Shown here: in pieces, positions 6,211 to 17,219 of the stretch
Numbering within the stretch: the stretch's first letter is position 1
Layout of the letters: the number at the start of each line of letters is the position of its first letter
Assembly: GCF_000301055.1 (NCBI RefSeq)
Contig: NZ_JH932301.1
Coordinates: 79,563-113,490 of the forward strand
From: Falseniella ignava CCUG 37419
Lineage (GTDB): Bacteria > Bacillota > Bacilli > Lactobacillales > Aerococcaceae
DNA: 33,928 bases
Direction: 5' to 3'
Made by a program: the position numbers and the translations under genes
Notes under the pieces: model-generated
Databases searched by the model: none
What the model was told of the DNA's origin: nothing
Seen by the model: the letters and a program-made list of their open reading frames with translations, nothing else

Positions 6211-7284
6211 TTGAATCCAAAAAATAAGAAAAATTTAATCGGCTTAGGCGTCGCTTTTATATTCGCCTTACTACTCTATATTATTTATATCAATCGAAAT
6301 AATCAGCCAAGTAATCATCCGACTGCCGTCATTACGGAAACCGTTGAAATTACAACGACTGAGTCGATTGACACAAGTAACTCAAATCAACAACGTCAAT
6401 CTGTTGAAACGTCCGAGGAATCCACGACGGTTTCATCCGATTCCGCTGCCGTTCGATTCGATCCAAACATTTATCGTACGGATCTCATCCAAGAATACGG
6501 TAAAGACCAATTTGATGTTTCGGAATATGACACAGTTGATGAGTTAATCGAACAGTTAGTGACGGATTATCAAGTTGATTTCAACCAAGTCGGTATCTCG
6601 TTCTATAACTTAAAAGATGATCATTATTACGGGTACAATGATAATAACTTTATTGTCGCTGCCAGTACGGCGAAAATTCCAGTCGTTATGGCCTTTATTG
6701 ATTTAATCAATCAAGGACAGTACGATTACGAGACAGAACTGCTCTATAATGATTACTTTAACTATGAAGGGGGTGGCAATATTGCTAACTCACCTGCTCA
6801 AGCAAGCTATTCAATTGCTGATTTGATGGCAGAAGCCATCCGTCATTCCGATAATACGGCCTGGTATACCTTAGTCTTTAACTATCCGAATAACTTCGGG
6901 GGTGTTGCAAATTATATTTTACAAAAAACGGGTAATTACAATATTCCTGAGTATTTCTATATGGATAATTATGGTTCTGCTTATCTCTATTTCCAATTGC
7001 TCTATATTGTTGCCACACAGCCAGAGTATGACTATTTAGTTCAATTAATGCGCGAGACAGATCCGCCACAACTCTTTACGTCATTTATTCATACCGATGT
7101 CTTAGCGAATAAGTACGGACGGGTAGATGGTGAAATCAACGATGTTGCAATCTACTATGAAAATGATCAACCACAATATATATTGACCGCTTTTACAACT
7201 AACGTACCTGGAGCAGATCACTTGTTAGAAGATTTATCACTCTATGTCAATTTGTGGTATCGTGATCACTATATTTTAAATTAA
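6211..7284 (+). CDS. membrane-anchored serine hydrolase, class A beta-lactamase-like fold
   Basis: This 357-residue protein has one N-terminal membrane span (residues about 9-28, positively charged N-flank), a Ser/Thr-rich linker (about 30-80) and an extracellular domain of the penicillin-recognising superfamily. All three active-site elements are visible: S-T-A-K (S152, K155), S-D-N (S213-N215) and a K-x-G triad, KYG (301-303). The fold is shared by class A beta-lactamases and by non-lactamase serine hydrolases that are common in Lactobacillales. I see no reason to call it a resistance gene; a cell-wall peptide or lipid-linked substrate is equally possible. The start must be TTG at 6211, because an in-frame stop lies just upstream (6199-6201) and the nearby ATG at 6198 is out of frame. 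GAAGGG lies about 14 bases before it. It is monocistronic and head-on to replication. Confidence 0.85.
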   Translation: MNPKNKKNLIGLGVAFIFALLLYIIYINRNNQPSNHPTAVITETVEITTTESIDTSNSNQQRQSVETSEESTTVSSDSAAVRFDPNIYRTDLIQEYGKDQFDVSEYDTVDELIEQLVTDYQVDFNQVGISFYNLKDDHYYGYNDNNFIVAASTAKIPVVMAFIDLINQGQYDYETELLYNDYFNYEGGGNIANSPAQASYSIADLMAEAIRHSDNTAWYTLVFNYPNNFGGVANYILQKTGNYNIPEYFYMDNYGSAYLYFQLLYIVATQPEYDYLVQLMRETDPPQLFTSFIHTDVLANKYGRVDGEINDVAIYYENDQPQYILTAFTTNVPGADHLLEDLSLYVNLWYRDHYILN

Positions 7285-8273: not shown

Positions 8274-9395
8274 TTAGTTTCCTTTCTTTGTTTCAAATAA
8301 TAATTCACGTTCTTCTTTTAATTGGGTAGCTGATAGATCCGACCGTACGGTCTGATGCGTTGCTACTGTATGGTAAGCATTGGTCATTCCAAGCTCAATC
8401 GATTCTTGAGCTGATAGGCCGTGAATACATCCATAGATAATACCGGCTGCATTGGAATCTCCTGCACCTGTAACATCTACGACATTCGGTTGAAGTGGAG
8501 GTTGAATAGCTAAATATTCTTCCTGTTGATTCGTATACACTGTCGGTCGCTTGCCACTTGTTATAACAACATGTTGAACACCACAATCTAGCCACCTGTG
8601 AGCTAATTGCTCTGTTGATTCTTGTCCCGCTTCGAGATTGAAATATACTTCAGATTCATCTTGGTTAACAATTAACCAATCCAAACCTTCTAAATGTTTT
8701 GGTAAGTGACTCATTTTTGGACCACTTACTGGTACAATAATTAATTTCGCGCCAGATTGCTTGGACAGATTCAATAGTTCTTCAATAACTTCCTTTTGTA
8801 CATTTAAATCAACAATAATATAACTAGCATTTGAGAGGATTGATAAATATTCGTTAATCCATTCTCGATTCATTTGATCAGCAATCGACATATCCGCTAA
8901 GGCATAACGCATCTCGCCTTCTGTATCTAAAATTGCTGAATAGGCACTCGTTGACTGATCGCTATAAAGCTTCACTTTATTTAAATTAATGTAAGGCTCA
9001 CTTTGTTGTTTAATATATTGATAATCTTGATCATTTCCTGCGACTGACAAAAGGGTAATATCCATACCTAAGCGACCTAAATTTTCAGCCACATTTCTTC
9101 CAACACCACCAACACTGACACTTGAAGTAACCGGGTTACTTGTTTGTGGCAACATCGGTTCTAGCAAACGATAATTTCGATCAATATTCATTCCACCGAT
9201 ACAATACACATTCATCGCATCTTTCACCACATAAGCACGGCCTTGAATTCGACCTTTGCGCGTTAGCGCCTGGATAATTGTTGCAACAGTTGAACGGTTC
9301 AAGTTCAATGTCTCCCCAATTTCCGCTTGGGTTAGATAAGGATCTTGTCGCACCAACTCCAAGACACGCTGCTCATTGGTATTCAGTTGTTCCAC
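8274..9395 (-). CDS. psuK: pseudouridine kinase PsuK (PfkB family) with N-terminal winged-helix domain
   Basis: The 373-residue protein has two parts. Residues about 5-55 form a winged helix-turn-helix (LTQAEIGETLNLNRSTVATIIQALTRKGRI). From about residue 62 a ribokinase/PfkB domain begins with YCIGGMNIDRNY and contains the C-terminal PfkB signature DVTGAGDSNAAG, whose D313 is the catalytic base. Paired with psuG it is assigned as pseudouridine kinase, which makes pseudouridine 5'-phosphate from ATP and pseudouridine. HTH-fused PfkB proteins occur in other Firmicutes, and the DNA-binding domain suggests that the enzyme also controls its own operon (inference). The start is GTG (9393-9395), with GGAGGT five bases upstream. 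Starting later would delete the HTH. Confidence 0.9.
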   Translation of the reverse strand: MEQLNTNEQRVLELVRQDPYLTQAEIGETLNLNRSTVATIIQALTRKGRIQGRAYVVKDAMNVYCIGGMNIDRNYRLLEPMLPQTSNPVTSSVSVGGVGRNVAENLGRLGMDITLLSVAGNDQDYQYIKQQSEPYINLNKVKLYSDQSTSAYSAILDTEGEMRYALADMSIADQMNREWINEYLSILSNASYIIVDLNVQKEVIEELLNLSKQSGAKLIIVPVSGPKMSHLPKHLEGLDWLIVNQDESEVYFNLEAGQESTEQLAHRWLDCGVQHVVITSGKRPTVYTNQQEEYLAIQPPLQPNVVDVTGAGDSNAAGIIYGCIHGLSAQESIELGMTNAYHTVATHQTVRSDLSATQLKEERELLFETKKGN

Positions 9396-12146: not shown

Positions 12147-12234
12147 AGAGGTATTTCCTCCTTATAAATTGCAAATTGCACTGAGTGTTTTTAAATCATT
12201 AAAAATCCAATCAGTGACTGAAATGATTGCTTTT

Positions 12235-12263
12235 ATTATACCTTGAATTAAGCGATTATACAA
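12235..12263 (-). promoter_or_regulatory. promoter for the CorC-GerMN operon
   Basis: Minus-strand TTGTAT (12258-12263), a 17-base spacer and TATAAT (12235-12240). It leaves an untranslated leader of about 80 bases. A weak hairpin (CAATCA/TGATTG, about 12208-12230) lies near the transcription start and is too small for a known magnesium riboswitch. Confidence 0.65.
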
Positions 12264-12279
12264 AATTTCTAAAATAGTA

Positions 12280-12308
12280 TTGACAGGTAAGTGTACTACT
12301 CATATAAT
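12280..12308 (+). promoter_or_regulatory. consensus promoter of the GntR/ABC operon
   Basis: TTGACA (12280-12285), a 17-base spacer and TATAAT (12303-12308): a full match to the vegetative consensus. Such a strong promoter normally needs repression, and the two repeats at 12292-12311 and 12320-12339 sit on the -10 and just downstream. Confidence 0.85.
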
Positions 12309-12339
12309 ACAGTTAAAGTTGTATTATATACTTAATACA
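12292..12339 (+). promoter_or_regulatory. two identical-pattern operators for the GntR repressor
   Basis: Two 20-bp inverted repeats share the pattern TGTAYTA-N6-TAATACA: 12292-12311 and 12320-12339. Each half-site is 7 bp; the only variation is C or T at the fifth base. Their centres are 28 bp apart. The first covers the -10 element; the second lies in the early transcribed region before the Shine-Dalgarno of the gntR gene. Autoregulated YtrA-type GntR proteins bind sites of this general kind, so these are very likely this regulator's own operators (inference). Confidence 0.75.
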
Positions 12340-12361
12340 CTTTAAGAGAAAGGAGAGGCTT

Positions 12362-12733
12362 ATGAATATTAATTCACACCTGCCTATTTATGAGCAGTTG
12401 AAACAATACTTCAAATCCGAGATTGTCTCAGGGAATTTAACACCCGGTCAAGAATTACCGTCCCGGCGATCGATTGCCCAAGAATTTAAAGTCAATCCGA
12501 ACACCGTCCAACGTGCTTTTAAAGAACTGGAAGAGGAACACATTATTACAACCGATGCGAATGTTCCTAGCCGTGTTACAGAAGATATTCAAATAATCGA
12601 TGCATTACGTCATACGTTATTGCAACAAGCGATGATAGACTTTTATCAATTAATCCAACAATTGAATATCTCTCCACGCACAGCGCTCGAGGCACTCAAT
12701 GAATTTATTCAACAGAAGGAGGAAAAACAATGA
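12362..12733 (+). CDS. GntR-family regulator, YtrA subfamily
   Basis: The 123-residue protein has an N-terminal GntR winged helix (residues about 6-72: PIYEQLKQYFKSEIVSGNLTPGQELPSRRSIAQEFKVNPNTVQRAFKELEEEHII as one continuous family pattern), followed by only about 50 residues of helix. This short C-terminus defines the YtrA subfamily, whose members repress linked ABC-transporter genes and often respond to cell-wall-active agents. The ATG is preceded by AGGAGAGG. Its stop overlaps the ATG of the ATPase gene by four bases, so both are translated together. It should autoregulate through the paired repeats upstream. The family call is firm; the inducer is unknown. Confidence 0.92.
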   Translation: MNINSHLPIYEQLKQYFKSEIVSGNLTPGQELPSRRSIAQEFKVNPNTVQRAFKELEEEHIITTDANVPSRVTEDIQIIDALRHTLLQQAMIDFYQLIQQLNISPRTALEALNEFIQQKEEKQ

Positions 12734-13416
12734 TTGAACTGAAACATGTAAGTAAAAAATTCGGCAATAAAGCTATTTTGAATGATGTTTCATTTACCAT
12801 TCAACCCGGGGAAGTCACACTCCTTGTGGGAGAAAACGGGAGTGGCAAGACCACCTTATTGAACCTAATAATGCAATTAATCCCTCAAGGAAAAGGTGAA
12901 ATTTTATACAACAACCAACCCATCACCTTCGATGATTATCACAAAATCAGTTACGTGCCGGATCAAATTATTGTATTAAAACACTTAACCATATCAGAAG
13001 CTTTACAACAGATGAAAGATTATTATGCTACGTTCAATGAAAAGCGAGCCTATGAGATTCTAGAATTTTTCAATTTAAATGCCAACGATAAAATCAATCA
13101 ACTTTCAAAAGGGAATGTTGCTAAAGTAAATATTTTATTAGGGTTATCACTCGATAGTGACTTCATCTTAATGGATGAACCTTTTAGTGGAATTGATATT
13201 TTTACACGGGAAGAAATTCTTAGCGTATTTACTTCAAAATTACTCGAAGGACAGGGTGTTCTTATCTCAAGTCATGATATTCCTGAAATCGAATATATTG
13301 TGGATAAAGCAATTTTAATGCGCGATGGAACGATTGTAGAAGAAATTATTCCTGAACAACTTAGACAAGAACGAGGAATCAGTCTCGTTGATAAAATGCG
13401 GGAGGTGTATCGTTAA
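12730..13416 (+). CDS. ABC transporter ATP-binding protein (YtrB/BcrA-like)
   Basis: The 228-residue single nucleotide-binding domain has Walker A GENGSGKTT (34-42), signature LSKGN (125-129, a variant of LSGGQ seen in this kind of exporter), Walker B ILMDEP (D149, E150) and the switch histidine H182 in SSHD. It overlaps the GntR gene by four bases at its start and the permease gene by one base (TAATG) at its end, so the three form one translational unit. Energy for export or for lipid/peptide handling at the membrane is supplied here. The substrate is not evident. Confidence 0.92.
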   Translation: MIELKHVSKKFGNKAILNDVSFTIQPGEVTLLVGENGSGKTTLLNLIMQLIPQGKGEILYNNQPITFDDYHKISYVPDQIIVLKHLTISEALQQMKDYYATFNEKRAYEILEFFNLNANDKINQLSKGNVAKVNILLGLSLDSDFILMDEPFSGIDIFTREEILSVFTSKLLEGQGVLISSHDIPEIEYIVDKAILMRDGTIVEEIIPEQLRQERGISLVDKMREVYR

Positions 13417-14219
13417 TGAAGAAATTTATGAATTTACTGAATGATGAACTTAAACGCGCAAAATGGCTCTACTTGATTTTGGTTATCGCCGTTATTTTGA
13501 CACAAAGTTTGGTAATTTTCCGTCAATTTCGTCAAGCGAATTACTATTTTATGAATCAAAGAGACACTTTCTATATGTTAACGCTGGCAGATATTTTTAA
13601 ACAAACACCCTTATTTTTCTTAATTATTGGTGTCGCAGCTTTAAGTTTAATTTTATATAGTATGTTTACTTGGGTGCGTGAGTGGCATTTTCAAGGTAAT
13701 TATATTTATCGGTTGTTAATGCTACCAGGTAATCGGATGCCAATTTTTATGGCAAAATTTATCAGTATCTTATTAATGATTGTTGGCTTATGGATGACTC
13801 AACTATTTATTTTATTCGCAACCGATTGGATTGGAAGTTTACTACCACACTTATATCATTCCAGCTCTGTAGTTCAAGTTTTAATGCAACACTTAGATGG
13901 ATTTCAAGTTGTGATGCCAATGCACTTCCAAAGTTTTATCTACATTTACTTCTTTGGATTTAATTTTCTAATTGGGCTGATGAATATTACTATTATCGTC
14001 TTAAGCTATCGCAGCTATCATTTGATTCAAACGATTTTGTTGCCACTGCTCTATCTATTTTTCAGTTGGGGCATTTCTGCCTTAATTATTCAATTTGCAT
14101 CGGCGATTAACTTTACAAGTTTTGAGTTTAATATCGTCGCAATGACCCTACTGGTGATAGCCATGGTTATTCAATTATCAATTAGTTATTACATTATGAA
14201 TCACTACATTAGTGTTTAG
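13416..14219 (+). CDS. ABC transporter permease, six membrane spans
   Basis: The 267-residue protein is almost wholly hydrophobic. It has about six spans, near residues 14-32, 60-82, 109-138, 172-196, 202-228 and 238-261. The N-terminus (MKKFMNLLNDELKRAKWLYL) resembles ABC-2 type permeases. Its start overlaps the stop of the ATPase gene by one base. With a single permease and a single ATPase, the likely complex is a homodimer of each. There is no large extracytoplasmic domain within it; the following gene may supply that function. No specific family substrate can be named. Confidence 0.82.
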   Translation: MKKFMNLLNDELKRAKWLYLILVIAVILTQSLVIFRQFRQANYYFMNQRDTFYMLTLADIFKQTPLFFLIIGVAALSLILYSMFTWVREWHFQGNYIYRLLMLPGNRMPIFMAKFISILLMIVGLWMTQLFILFATDWIGSLLPHLYHSSSVVQVLMQHLDGFQVVMPMHFQSFIYIYFFGFNFLIGLMNITIIVLSYRSYHLIQTILLPLLYLFFSWGISALIIQFASAINFTSFEFNIVAMTLLVIAMVIQLSISYYIMNHYISV

Positions 14220-14234
14220 GAAGGAGTCTTAACC

Positions 14235-15362
14235 ATGCGACGCAATTTTACTGCAATTAGTACCATCATTATTAGCATACTATTTCTTATTATTTATTGG
14301 ACAATGCCACTTCAAATTAAGCAAACCGTTAATTCAGACTTAATTCATGGGAATCGTGAAGTCATTCAAAGACTGCAACCCGAATTGTATTACAACTTGT
14401 CTAATCCATCGATTAATGATGCACCCACAATTATCGATGTCAGTGCCCAATCAATTCAACCAAAAATGTTTAATTTATTTCATAATACTGAACAACGTGA
14501 TTCGATCTATCAACACTATTCATTATCTAAACGACCACCGATAGCCAATCAATTTCCAACCAACCATCCGCTAGTATGGTATAAAATCAACTATGACTTT
14601 AATGGCAATGCGACCGAACTTGATTATACTGTTTTTAATACCGATTATCGTGAATTTTCTACGTATCATTACCCATTAACCAATAATTACAATACACAAT
14701 TCATCGCCTGTGTTGAAGATCAAGATTATTATTATTTCTTATTTACCTATCAAAACTTTTCTACAGAAAATGAGATGGGAAGCCAATCTATCGAACGACT
14801 CAAAATTGATAAAACATCCGGTGACGTTGTGGATTCGAAAAACATGGCAATTGATTCCAAATATTATTTAAATGTTAATTACCATTCATATAATACCCAT
14901 CACCAATCTGAAACAACCTTAATCTGTCTAGATGAAGTTCAAACTGAACCACAAAATGATCTCGAGTATCAGCCAATTTCTCACTATCAGTGGCTCAATA
15001 TTAAAGACTTGACGATGGAAGAAGTTAAACATCCAGAAATCGTTGAAGACATGTACTACAATCATAATCTCATTTATAACTCGACCTTTTATTTTGTGGA
15101 ATTAAATCAAGATCAGACAGAAGCAACGATCAAAGCTTTAGATATTGCTTCGAATAAGACGAAAGAAATTCGTACCATTCCTCAAATGATGGATATTGCA
15201 CTTACATCTGAGTTATTAATTACAGCTGAGAAATTATCTAATCAAAAGATTCAGCTTCAAGCATTCAATTTATTAGATAATCAATTGATTTATCAAGAAA
15301 ATTTTGAAACTAATAAAGATTATCAATGGAGTGGTGTTAGTTTACAATCTGAGAATTATTAA
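14235..15362 (+). CDS. unrecognised membrane-anchored extracellular protein linked to the ABC transporter
   Basis: I do not recognise this 375-residue protein. One hydrophobic segment (about residues 7-24) follows MRR and should act as an uncleaved anchor; no lipobox is seen. The remaining 350 or so residues are polar, rich in Asn, Tyr, Asp and aromatic residues. They show recurring short beta-strand-like segments (for example FIACVEDQDYYYFLFTY, TTLICLDEV, LIYNSTFYFVELNQD, ELLITAEKL), suggestive of a beta-propeller or other all-beta sensor. The gene is 15 bases after the permease, with GGAAGGAGT as ribosome site, so it belongs to the GntR/ABC operon. It probably acts outside the cell with the transporter (inference from context). 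Confidence 0.7.
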   Translation: MRRNFTAISTIIISILFLIIYWTMPLQIKQTVNSDLIHGNREVIQRLQPELYYNLSNPSINDAPTIIDVSAQSIQPKMFNLFHNTEQRDSIYQHYSLSKRPPIANQFPTNHPLVWYKINYDFNGNATELDYTVFNTDYREFSTYHYPLTNNYNTQFIACVEDQDYYYFLFTYQNFSTENEMGSQSIERLKIDKTSGDVVDSKNMAIDSKYYLNVNYHSYNTHHQSETTLICLDEVQTEPQNDLEYQPISHYQWLNIKDLTMEEVKHPEIVEDMYYNHNLIYNSTFYFVELNQDQTEATIKALDIASNKTKEIRTIPQMMDIALTSELLITAEKLSNQKIQLQAFNLLDNQLIYQENFETNKDYQWSGVSLQSENY

Positions 15363-15442
15363 CCTTCAATGCGTATGATTGTATTTTTTGCTGAATCCTT
15401 GATACGCTAATAGTAGACTTACATAGAAAGGTTTGATTTTTA

Positions 15443-16030
15443 ATGAAACAATTATTTACAAAAAGTAGTCTATTCCTTCTTGGTCTTTTGACAACAACAT
15501 CATTTATCGTAGCGCCAGTCTATGCGCAAAATGATGCTAAGGAAGAAACAACCGTCGAAGTGAGTCAAGAAGATAAAAGTGAATTTCAAACTATTTTAGA
15601 AACTGCATTGAAGGATTTTGAGGAAAAATATCCCGAGGTAAAAATTAGTGGTTTGAAAGTAAAAATCCAAAAAGATGATATTATTGAAGTTGAAATTGAA
15701 GGGTTTGATAACGATTCAGACTACGAAGTCACTTACAATAGTAAAGAACAACAATTCACTAAGGAAGAAAAAGATGAATTAGATTCCGATGATGAATATA
15801 TTGAATTAGCCCTAGATAAGCTCAAAACTTTGGATGAAATTACCGAAATTGCAAATCAAAAAACGAATTTATCTAACATCGAATCTTGGAAATTAAGTGC
15901 AGATGATGATCATAACAATCAACCTGTTTGGGAAGTCGAGTATGATGACGAGAAAGAAAAAGATGATGTTGAATTAAAAATTGATGCCCAATCGGGAGAA
16001 ATACTCAAAGTTGAAGGGCTTGAATCCTAA
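15443..16030 (+). CDS. secreted PepSY-domain protein
   Basis: The 195-residue protein begins with a signal peptide (about 1-28, ending in the A-x-A-like site VYA before QNDA). The mature part is strongly acidic. The C-terminal half has the PepSY pattern: helix (ELALDKLKTLDEITEIA), then WKLSADDDHNNQPVWEVEYDDE and LKIDAQSGEILKVEG. An earlier segment (ETALKDFEEKYPEVKISGLKV...) may be a first, diverged PepSY-like repeat. PepSY proteins are thought to modulate extracellular proteases or act as small wall-associated sensors. It lies 80 bases after the previous gene, with GAAAGG ahead of the ATG. A weak promoter (TTGCTG at 15388, TAGTAG at 15411) is possible, so operon membership is uncertain. Confidence 0.8.
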   Translation: MKQLFTKSSLFLLGLLTTTSFIVAPVYAQNDAKEETTVEVSQEDKSEFQTILETALKDFEEKYPEVKISGLKVKIQKDDIIEVEIEGFDNDSDYEVTYNSKEQQFTKEEKDELDSDDEYIELALDKLKTLDEITEIANQKTNLSNIESWKLSADDDHNNQPVWEVEYDDEKEKDDVELKIDAQSGEILKVEGLES

Positions 16031-16034
16031 GCTA

Positions 16035-16136
16035 ACTTTCTAATTACATTAATGATTATTATGACAAAAAAACCTTCGGCTTCACAGCCGAAGGTTTCAA
16101 TGATTTATGGACATTAAATCATTGTAATTAGAAGGT
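16035..16136. repeat. 102-bp nested palindrome between convergent genes
   Basis: Outer arms 16036-16047 and 16124-16135 pair over 12 bp with one G-T wobble, extended by A16035-T16136. AATGATT (16051-16057) also pairs with AATCATT (16117-16123). Inside are two further hairpins: 16070-16097 (11 bp stem) and 16098-16124 (10 bp stem). The second shares bases with the outer arm, so two alternative folds compete. The size and whole-length symmetry recall a small non-autonomous palindromic element, but only one copy is in view. Confidence 0.5.
16070..16097. terminator. intrinsic terminator hairpin (stronger on the minus strand)
   Basis: An 11-bp perfect GC-rich stem, AAACCTTCGGC/GCCGAAGGTTT, has a six-base loop. 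On the minus strand it is followed by seven Ts. On the plus strand only three Ts follow. It therefore looks better placed to stop any jag-operon read-through than to end the PepSY transcript, though it can work both ways. Confidence 0.65.
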
Positions 16137-16283
16137 CATTTTGTTTATTTGGTAGGAAAAAATGACTATCAATTGATGAACTGGTCAAAGTGTACATAAA
16201 ATCAACTCACTAATCTATTCTAACACAAAAAACTTTTTTCTGTTGATCTAAAATAACACTTTTTTTTTAATCTTCTGAACAAC

Positions 16284-16310
16284 AAAAGGCTGACCTAGAA
16301 TCAGCCTTTT
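16284..16310. terminator. terminator after jag (khpB)
   Basis: A perfect 10-bp stem (16284-16293 with 16301-16310) has a seven-base loop, ten bases after the jag stop on the minus strand. The U-tract is moderate (TTTT then GTTGTT). The interval 16140-16283 between this and the palindrome is A/T-rich, and I see no gene in it. Confidence 0.7.
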
Positions 16311-16319
16311 AAAATACAA

Positions 16320-17219
16320 TTATTGTGTTTTATCTACATATTCAACAACTAAATAACGATTTGGCTCTTTTCCTTCAGAATGTGTCTTAATACGATCATA
16401 TTCAGCAAGATGAGCGTGAATTTGTTTGCGTTCATATGCAGGAAGTGGGTCTAAAATCACCGTCTGACGTGTACTTAAAACTTCCTTAGCAGTACGTGAT
16501 GCAATCTGTTCAAGGACGTTTGCACGACGATCACGATAGTCGCCAACATTTAATAGGACAGATACACGGTGGTGACAATAATTTTGTAATAATGTTTGAG
16601 ATAAAATTTGCAATGAATTAATAATTTTTCCGTGTTTTCCAATAACCAGACCTGATTTGTCTGTTTCAATATTAAAGGTTACTTGGTTACCATTGATATC
16701 AAATGTTGTTTCAGATTTTGCACCGTACTCTTTTATGACACGGTCAATATAAGAAGCAACTAATTCACTTGATTTATCCAATGGCAAACCTGTCGAATCA
16801 GTTTCTTTAGTTTCATTTGTTTCTTTTACAGCTGATTCTGGTGCACTTGGAGTCGCTACTGTTTGCTCTGTTGGCGTTGAAATTTCGACTTCATTTGTAA
16901 CATCATGCGATAAAGGTTCTTCTACCACAACTTCTTCCGATGGTTCGACCGGCGCGGTAGTTGGTTGTGGCGATTGAATTTCTTGTTGTTCTTCTTTTTC
17001 TTCTTGAATTAAAACTTCAGTTAATTCTTTGTAGCTTAAATTATCTTTCACCTGGATTTCTACAATCGCATCTTGCTTCCCAAAGCCAAATAATCCTTTT
17101 TTACCTTCACTAATGACACGAATTTCAGCATCTTTTTCTTGGATATTTAGCTCACGAAGTCCTTTAGCAATTGCTTTTTCTACCGTTTCACCACGAACTG
17201 TTAATGAATTTTCAATCAT
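16320..17219 (-). CDS. khpB: RNA-binding protein KhpB (Jag/EloR)
   Basis: KhpB is a cytoplasmic RNA-binding protein that, with KhpA, controls cell elongation and division in Gram-positive cocci. The 299-residue product has the Jag_N domain (1-52, MIENSLTVRGETVEKAIAKG, ending GKKGLFGFGKQDAIVEIQV), a long Glu/Pro/Thr-rich linker (about 60-145), a KH domain whose GxxG loop reads GKHG (about 165-215), and a C-terminal R3H domain (RKQIHAHLAEYDRIKTHSEG, ending NRYLVVEY). It lies 12 bases downstream of yidC, as in most Firmicutes, and closes the rpmH-rnpA-yidC-jag set. The normal next gene, mnmE, is displaced by about 10 kb here. Confidence 0.95.
   Translation of the reverse strand: MIENSLTVRGETVEKAIAKGLRELNIQEKDAEIRVISEGKKGLFGFGKQDAIVEIQVKDNLSYKELTEVLIQEEKEEQQEIQSPQPTTAPVEPSEEVVVEEPLSHDVTNEVEISTPTEQTVATPSAPESAVKETNETKETDSTGLPLDKSSELVASYIDRVIKEYGAKSETTFDINGNQVTFNIETDKSGLVIGKHGKIINSLQILSQTLLQNYCHHRVSVLLNVGDYRDRRANVLEQIASRTAKEVLSTRQTVILDPLPAYERKQIHAHLAEYDRIKTHSEGKEPNRYLVVEYVDKTQ

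Follow-up and report, generated by a model that had tools for sequence, protein, structure and literature searches.

A YtrA-type ABC-2 transporter operon of Falseniella ignava with a probable membrane-anchored beta-propeller protein

Introduction

A compact operon in Falseniella ignava CCUG 37419, a member of the Aerococcaceae, raises the question of what an exported protein of unfamiliar sequence contributes to the ABC transporter with which it is encoded. In Gram-positive bacteria, an ABC-2 exporter is usually regarded as an ATPase plus a permease. In this operon, a regulator, an ATPase, and a permease are followed by a fourth gene, here called g4, whose product is predicted to carry its own extracytoplasmic domain. 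The window analyzed is the whole stretch of 33,928 nucleotides (contig NZ_JH932301.1, positions 79,563 to 113,490, forward strand) in which the operon was noticed; the genome measures 1.77 Mb and is the sole representative of its genus among the genome sets searched. The original prediction, made from this DNA, proposed that g4 supplies the extracellular domain that the permease lacks, as a ligand sensor or accessory subunit of an envelope-stress transporter. Here, we describe the organization and control of the operon, the predicted fold of g4, and the conservation of the four genes across the Bacilli, and we weigh the possible functions of the encoded proteins.

Organization of the operon

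All four genes are on the forward strand. The first encodes a GntR regulator of the YtrA type (12362-12733, 123 residues), the second an ABC transporter ATPase (12730-13416, 228 residues), and the third an ABC-2 type permease (13416-14219, 267 residues), while g4 (14235-15362) encodes a predicted exported, single-anchor protein of 375 residues that, by a family profile and the model of a relative, is probably a beta-propeller. The regulator and ATPase genes overlap by 4 bases (12730-12733), the ATPase and permease genes by 1 base (13416), and a gap of 15 bases (14220-14234; GGAAGGAG) separates the permease gene from g4, exactly the layout that had been predicted. Because the cassette recurs across many genomes, this arrangement is more than chance. 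A PepSY gene downstream was considered as a fifth member and rejected, as the open reading frames of 35 fetched regions from the same taxonomic family include no relative of it at E<=0.01. A role as a defense system was likewise dismissed, the PADLOC matches being only to generic ATPase and helix-turn-helix parts.

The ATPase matches ABC_tran (PF00005, E 3.8e-26) and its translation contains the Walker A (GENGSGKTT) and Walker B (FILMDEP) motifs of an ABC ATPase, with the signature LSKGN where the textbook form is LSGGQ. The nearest NCBIfam models are PmtA, LptB, and a lantibiotic-protection ATPase, and all score far under their cut-offs. The permease matches the Pfam family ABC2_membrane_4 below the cut-off (E 0.17), and the same family is matched by 4 of 20 aligned permease relatives at E<=0.1, with a best value of 1.8e-7. 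A Kyte-Doolittle scan gives approximately six membrane segments joined by short loops, the longest of about 37 residues, which leaves no large extracellular domain and agrees with the earlier statement that the permease lacks one.

Regulator, promoter, and operators

The regulator has the size expected of the YtrA subfamily, with a GntR winged helix (PF00392, E 1.3e-16) at residues 10-70 of 123 and a short C-terminal part. Upstream of its gene, a putative sigma-A type promoter on the forward strand (12280-12308) consists of TTGACA (12280-12285), a 17-base spacer, and TATAAT (12303-12308). It matches the consensus at 12 of 12 positions and is the top of the 24 promoter-like sites listed in 12147-16330; the call is a consensus match only, and 24 sites are no excess over the 20.2 +/- 4.6 found in shuffled sequence.

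An unguided search for repeats returned TGTATTAT and TTAATACA in most regions upstream of gntR. When one mismatch is allowed, the common motif, TGTATTA-N6-TAATACA, is found in 66 of 70 cassette upstream regions, often in two or three copies, and it is absent from four (L042, L044, L050, and L061). The spacer is six bases in all 123 sites, though 2-11 were permitted. In mononucleotide shuffles, which keep base composition and not dinucleotides, the motif occurs in 0.26%. It was also found in all 20 upstream regions obtained later, none of which had been used in its discovery. Among the seven named loci L067-L073, the motif is present within one mismatch in five; L073 has it only at two mismatches, and L068 has no copy within two mismatches.

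The window contains two such palindromes, to which no strand is assigned. Operator 1 (12292-12311, TGTACTA-N6-TAATACA) has one mismatch to the common motif and covers the -10 box, and operator 2 (12320-12339, TGTATTA-N6-TAATACA) has zero mismatches and lies 8 bases past operator 1. With the flanking A/G, the operator measures 24 bases, and a site of about 24 bases with widely spaced half-sites is described as typical of YtrA regulators (PMC6746942); the palindrome, the distant half-sites, and the nearness to the promoter all agree with that description. In the whole 1.77-Mb genome, the pattern TGTAYTA-N6-TARTACA occurs in two places only, 12292-12311 and 12320-12339, and a reversed control pattern has zero occurrences. 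The regulator most likely controls the window operon alone. Signals reported for YtrA-type repressors are, in B. subtilis, antibiotics that bind lipid II (PMC7828314, PMC12772383) and, in S. aureus, the phenol-soluble modulins, toxin peptides that the cell exports (PMC5080381).

The g4 protein

The g4 protein of the window has no match in Pfam or NCBIfam at E<=1 and no sequence match in the PDB at E<=10. Across 26 g4 relatives, Pfam gives 13 families, each from one member, of which several are propeller repeats and several are unrelated, and NCBIfam gives 11 scattered matches of one member each. PADLOC gave no family for g4 either, and a known domain was rejected. Membership of g4 in a known family with a different function, one of the two outcomes named as contradicting the prediction, did not emerge; only the broad beta-propeller fold did.

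Hydropathy analysis (Kyte-Doolittle) gives one hydrophobic segment, at residues 2-29. Only a few residues precede it, and the protein has no further cytoplasmic domain, so that g4 would be an extracytoplasmic domain on a single anchor, as had been proposed and as the model of a relative also indicates. A simple lipobox pattern is found in none of 89 g4 proteins, which sets them apart from substrate-binding lipoproteins, and an AxA motif, a possible cleavage site, is found in 15 of the 89. The only positions conserved in more than 90% of these proteins are a glycine (window residue 39) and an arginine (window residue 100), present in 82 and 83 of the 89.

Most of the best matches of the g4 profile in the PDB are propellers (myocilin, Kelch, FAP, TolB, YncE, and tricorn), with E values from 2.4e-5 upward; some clear non-propellers are among the matches as well (S6 kinase, ribosomal L24, and PP1 regulatory subunit 7). 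AF2 modeling of the window g4 from its single sequence was poor (pLDDT 39.8). For the g4 of Robertmurraya massiliosenegalensis (L072), which is approximately 18% identical to that of the window, a model from six sequences, the window g4 included, reached a pLDDT of 80.1 and a pTM of 0.72. The DSSP assignment of this model may be read as a membrane helix at the N terminus (2-27) followed by three strands, an insert of helical structure (81-105), and then five four-stranded blades plus a last strand. The last strand and the first three strands would together close a sixth blade, and the whole count is tentative. Foldseek matched the model to 313 PDB chains at E<=0.001, with TM-scores of only 0.20-0.41 over the model for the best 50 of the 313; the blade number is uncertain because of these low scores. 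In structural comparison with VIA-align, methylamine dehydrogenase and a prolyl-oligopeptidase-type propeller both reach a Z of 12.3, XusB reaches 11.4, and BtuK1 10.9; rows within 1 Z count as tied. Of the checks that the prediction had called for, a structure model together with HMM and Foldseek searches returned no curated family, propeller-type PDB matches, and an anchored beta-propeller as the model of the relative. The g4 protein is likely a beta-propeller.

Conservation of the cassette

Permease relatives are present in 39 of 76 genomes of the taxonomic family, the window included, and 35 of the other 38 were fetched. In 34 of these 35, a g4-type open reading frame of 345-422 residues adjoins the permease, starting between 23 bases before and 15 bases after the permease stop; in the 35th region (G073), the ATPase and permease survive only as a broken remnant. 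The other outcome named as contradicting the prediction, a g4 gene not conserved next to this transporter, did not occur. Plain BLAST recognized only 3 of the 34 neighbors as relatives of the window g4, which is 9-17% identical to 25 aligned family g4 proteins. A single-sequence search had returned only its own copy in 60 genomes, and zero relatives in further genome contigs; the resulting view of g4 as an orphan was overturned by gene order and profiles. It is the position of the gene, rather than its sequence, that is conserved.

A search profile built from 31 family g4 proteins matches 62 of 295 genomes in the order, a few of the matches being weak and outside the cassette, and 52 of 398 genomes in the class. 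Outside the family, 42 genomes of the order were matched and 40 were fetched, two weak ones being left out. The permease and g4 lie side by side in 37 of the 40 loci, and gntR, ATPase, permease, and g4 follow in that sequence in 36, with one more truncated by a contig end; three weak matches are without ABC genes. In the class, 29 of 51 other matched genomes were examined, the remainder having weaker E values. ATPase, permease, and g4 occur together in 27 of the 29 and two weak matches are without them, genome G036 being counted in both surveys. All 20 class loci refetched with more upstream DNA begin with gntR. The profile matches away from ABC genes (L214, L215, L216, L244, and L245) have E values of 1.4e-8 to 2.6e-4.

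The full four-gene cassette is present at the named loci L067, L068, L070, L071, and L072, from Robertmurraya siralis, Virgibacillus oceani, Bacillus sp. CECT 9360, Paenibacillus lycopersici, and R. massiliosenegalensis. Heyndrickxia coagulans has a close relative of the ATPase, and the end of its cassette is missing at a contig end. In a Sporosarcina MAG (L069), an ATPase 57% identical to that of the window is followed by an unrelated open reading frame on the opposite strand, with no permease and no g4. Six Clostridial loci (L075, L076, L077, L080, L082, and L083) were considered and are not counted as the same family, profile-profile comparison aligning 55 N-terminal columns at a probability of 57%. 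At these loci an ATPase is followed by an exported protein of 463-576 residues.

Rates of evolution were compared in 88 complete cassettes and the window (89 in total, from 95 regions). The ATPase has a mean pairwise identity of 57.5%, GntR one of 45.5%, and the permease one of 28.9%; g4, the least conserved member of the cassette, stands at 16.8%. The median dN/dS ranks the genes in the same way (ATPase 0.056, GntR 0.090, permease 0.15, and g4 0.23) in the 21 of 121 close pairs that passed the filter, pairs that share genomes and are hence non-independent. Diversifying selection over the whole gene was rejected, as dN/dS is always below 1 in the 21 pairs (0.06-0.39 for g4). The g4 value of 0.23 indicates that the protein is kept by purifying selection, loosely, as we would expect of a surface-exposed domain with variable partners.

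Comparison with known systems

A search of the open-access literature, with subscription papers and preprints outside its scope, found no publication on the cassette. Within that literature, the earlier statement that no described system has exactly this composition holds, with one close parallel in a survey of phage-shock (PSP) partners, namely operons in which a GntR regulator, an ABC ATPase, and a permease are encoded together with a Toastrack protein anchored in the membrane (PMC11237479). These operons are the nearest in composition, as both have GntR, one ABC ATPase, a permease, and an anchored extracytoplasmic beta-rich protein; they differ from the window cassette in having Toastrack as the anchored domain and in including a DUF2884 lipoprotein (PMC11237479). 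Toastrack/DUF4097 is not among the 13 Pfam families matched by the 26 g4 proteins at E<=0.1.

A YtrA-type repressor also heads the ABC operon ytrGABCDEF of B. subtilis, whose described products include two ATPases, two permease-type proteins, and YtrF of the FtsX family, whereas the window operon encodes one ATPase, one permease, and a probable propeller (PMC7828314, PMC12772383). No partner of the YtrF kind was recognized, as neither the window g4 (E<=1) nor the 26 g4 proteins (E<=0.1) match FtsX/MacB. NosDFY, like the window cassette, joins an ABC-2 ATPase and permease to a beta-rich protein outside the cytoplasm; this protein, NosD, serves copper and folds as a beta-helix instead of a propeller. 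The pmtABCD genes of S. aureus encode two ATPases and two permeases and are not known to include a propeller. The window proteins reach 54.5 of 200 bits against the NCBIfam model PmtR and 131.9 of 350 bits against PmtA, and are not assigned to these equivalogs. What the pmtR-pmtABCD operon has in common with the window operon is a small YtrA-type repressor under one promoter with the ABC genes (PMC5080381).

In Bacteroides, the surface beta-propeller XusB is reported to capture a ligand and pass it to the membrane transporter XusA (PMC13142918), and by analogy g4 may work in a similar way. The superposition of XusB on the L072 model has an rmsd of 5.2 over 264 residues, and its Z is tied with those of other propellers. 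Unlike g4, XusB is an outer-membrane lipoprotein that serves a TonB-dependent importer, and the two have no sequence family in common.

Proposed mechanism and alternatives

We favor, with a probability of about 0.6, the reading that the cassette is a self-contained, self-repressed ABC-2 module of the YtrA type with a dedicated extracytoplasmic propeller subunit. The YtrA-type regulator would bind the two conserved operators, one of them on the -10 box, and would keep its own operon silent as long as no signal releases it. The ATPase and permease, probably two of each, would form an ABC-2 transporter that has no extracellular domain. The g4 protein would be exported through Sec, remain tethered by its N-terminal helix, and set its propeller on the outer face beside the permease, with which it is consistently paired in the genome and probably in contact. 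There, it may recognize or receive whatever the pump transports or removes from the membrane, the likeliest candidates being an envelope-active peptide and a lipid-linked compound, and the faster sequence change of g4 would reflect a variable external partner. Of the two roles in the original prediction, the accessory subunit fits well because of the conserved pairing and the modeled single-anchor outer domain; the sensor is considered with the alternatives below. As to envelope stress, induction of B. subtilis ytr by antibiotics did not mean protection and no consistent survival role is reported (PMC12772383), which calls for like caution with the window cassette.

An unlikely alternative is that the ABC part moves no substrate and that ATP use alters the permease and through it switches the propeller, which would control a cell-wall enzyme or lipid II turnover in the manner of FtsEX. 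FtsEX drives a cell-wall hydrolase, and inspection of the neighborhood listings by eye found no cell-wall hydrolase gene conserved beside the cassette; g4 itself belongs to no enzyme family and matches neither FtsX nor MacB. The small permease with its short loops would suit such a device, as would the reports that YtrBCDEF alters cell-wall synthesis with no clear role in antibiotic survival (PMC12772383, PMC7828314). More doubtful still is a role of g4 in immunity or as a decoy, in which it would bind an extracellular antimicrobial by itself and the ABC genes would only share its regulation, as for LanI and LanFEG. The operon and operator common to g4 and the ABC genes, the fast sequence change of g4, and the match of the ATPase to TIGR03740 (E 2.4e-30, yet 105.9 bits against a cut-off of 309.75) are consistent with this idea. 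However, LanI proteins are lipoproteins and g4 proteins show no lipobox, g4 lies after the permease in every one of the 61 loci from the order and class surveys where it has a permease or ATPase nearby, no strong g4 match without the ABC pair was seen in these two surveys, and no bacteriocin genes were noticed nearby by eye.

The least probable of the alternatives, and a very improbable one, is that g4 is a sensor that signals to the regulator, with the transporter as output. YtrA-type regulators are described as having little room for a ligand pocket (PMC6746942), so that a separate sensor would be useful. However, g4 lacks a cytoplasmic part apart from the few residues ahead of its membrane segment, and the regulator is soluble and binds DNA, which leaves no visible path between them.

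Concluding remarks

The preferred reading, an ABC-2 module with its own propeller subunit, extends to a broader and more tentative proposal, to which we give somewhat less than even odds. The cassette may represent an undescribed class of ABC-2 systems in Bacilli, in which an obligatory, fast-evolving, anchored propeller subunit captures or releases the substrate outside the cell under the control of the system's own YtrA-type repressor and tandem operator. Such a class would be a Gram-positive counterpart, in reverse, of XusB. A conserved outer subunit of recognizable fold would offer a way to learn what these pumps bind, and a reporter built on the conserved operator allows a direct test for the inducing signal. 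What databases list as a lone hypothetical protein would become part of a module that can be tested and that approximately a fifth of the sampled genomes in the order contain.

Genes outside the cassette

In the window, the gene for g4, the exported fourth protein of the cassette, is followed after 80 bases by a gene (15443–16030, + strand) that encodes an exported protein with a PepSY domain (E = 5.8e-10). Because the consensus scan detected no + strand terminator between these two genes, the PepSY gene may lie on the same transcript as g4 here. A search of the 35 regions from the family yielded no relative of the PepSY protein with E ≤ 0.01. In some genomes, an ORF that was judged by eye to resemble an ECF sigma factor is located directly downstream of the cassette; such ORFs are present at 8794–9303 of locus L067, 8782–9291 of L072, and 641–1189 (− strand) of L220. 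Elsewhere in the window, the gene at 6211–7284 (+ strand) codes for a protein in which a Beta-lactamase2 (serine hydrolase) domain is recognised at E = 4.2e-25.

Variation and distant relatives of g4

Although the ATPases of loci L048, L052, and L053 are about equally close to one another (93–95%), g4 of L048 is 92% identical to that of L053 versus 64% to that of L052, and g4 may therefore have been exchanged between strains. In genome G073, the remnant locus L066 retains a broken cassette consisting of an ATPase piece of 134 residues and a permease piece of 59 residues, followed by further ABC genes on the opposite strand. A separate branch of the cassette is formed by class hits L230–L243, from a single genus with genomes of about 3 Mb, in which g4 is shorter (355–366 residues). 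Genome size and the adjacent genes hint that this genus may be Listeria.

In the clostridial loci L075, L076, L077, L080, L082, and L083, an ABC ATPase gene is followed by one for an exported protein of 463–576 residues. These exported proteins begin in a g4-like manner, with a GD motif past the membrane segment, and their profile match to g4 covers 55 columns only. These loci are possibly a distant version of the ATPase–g4 pairing.
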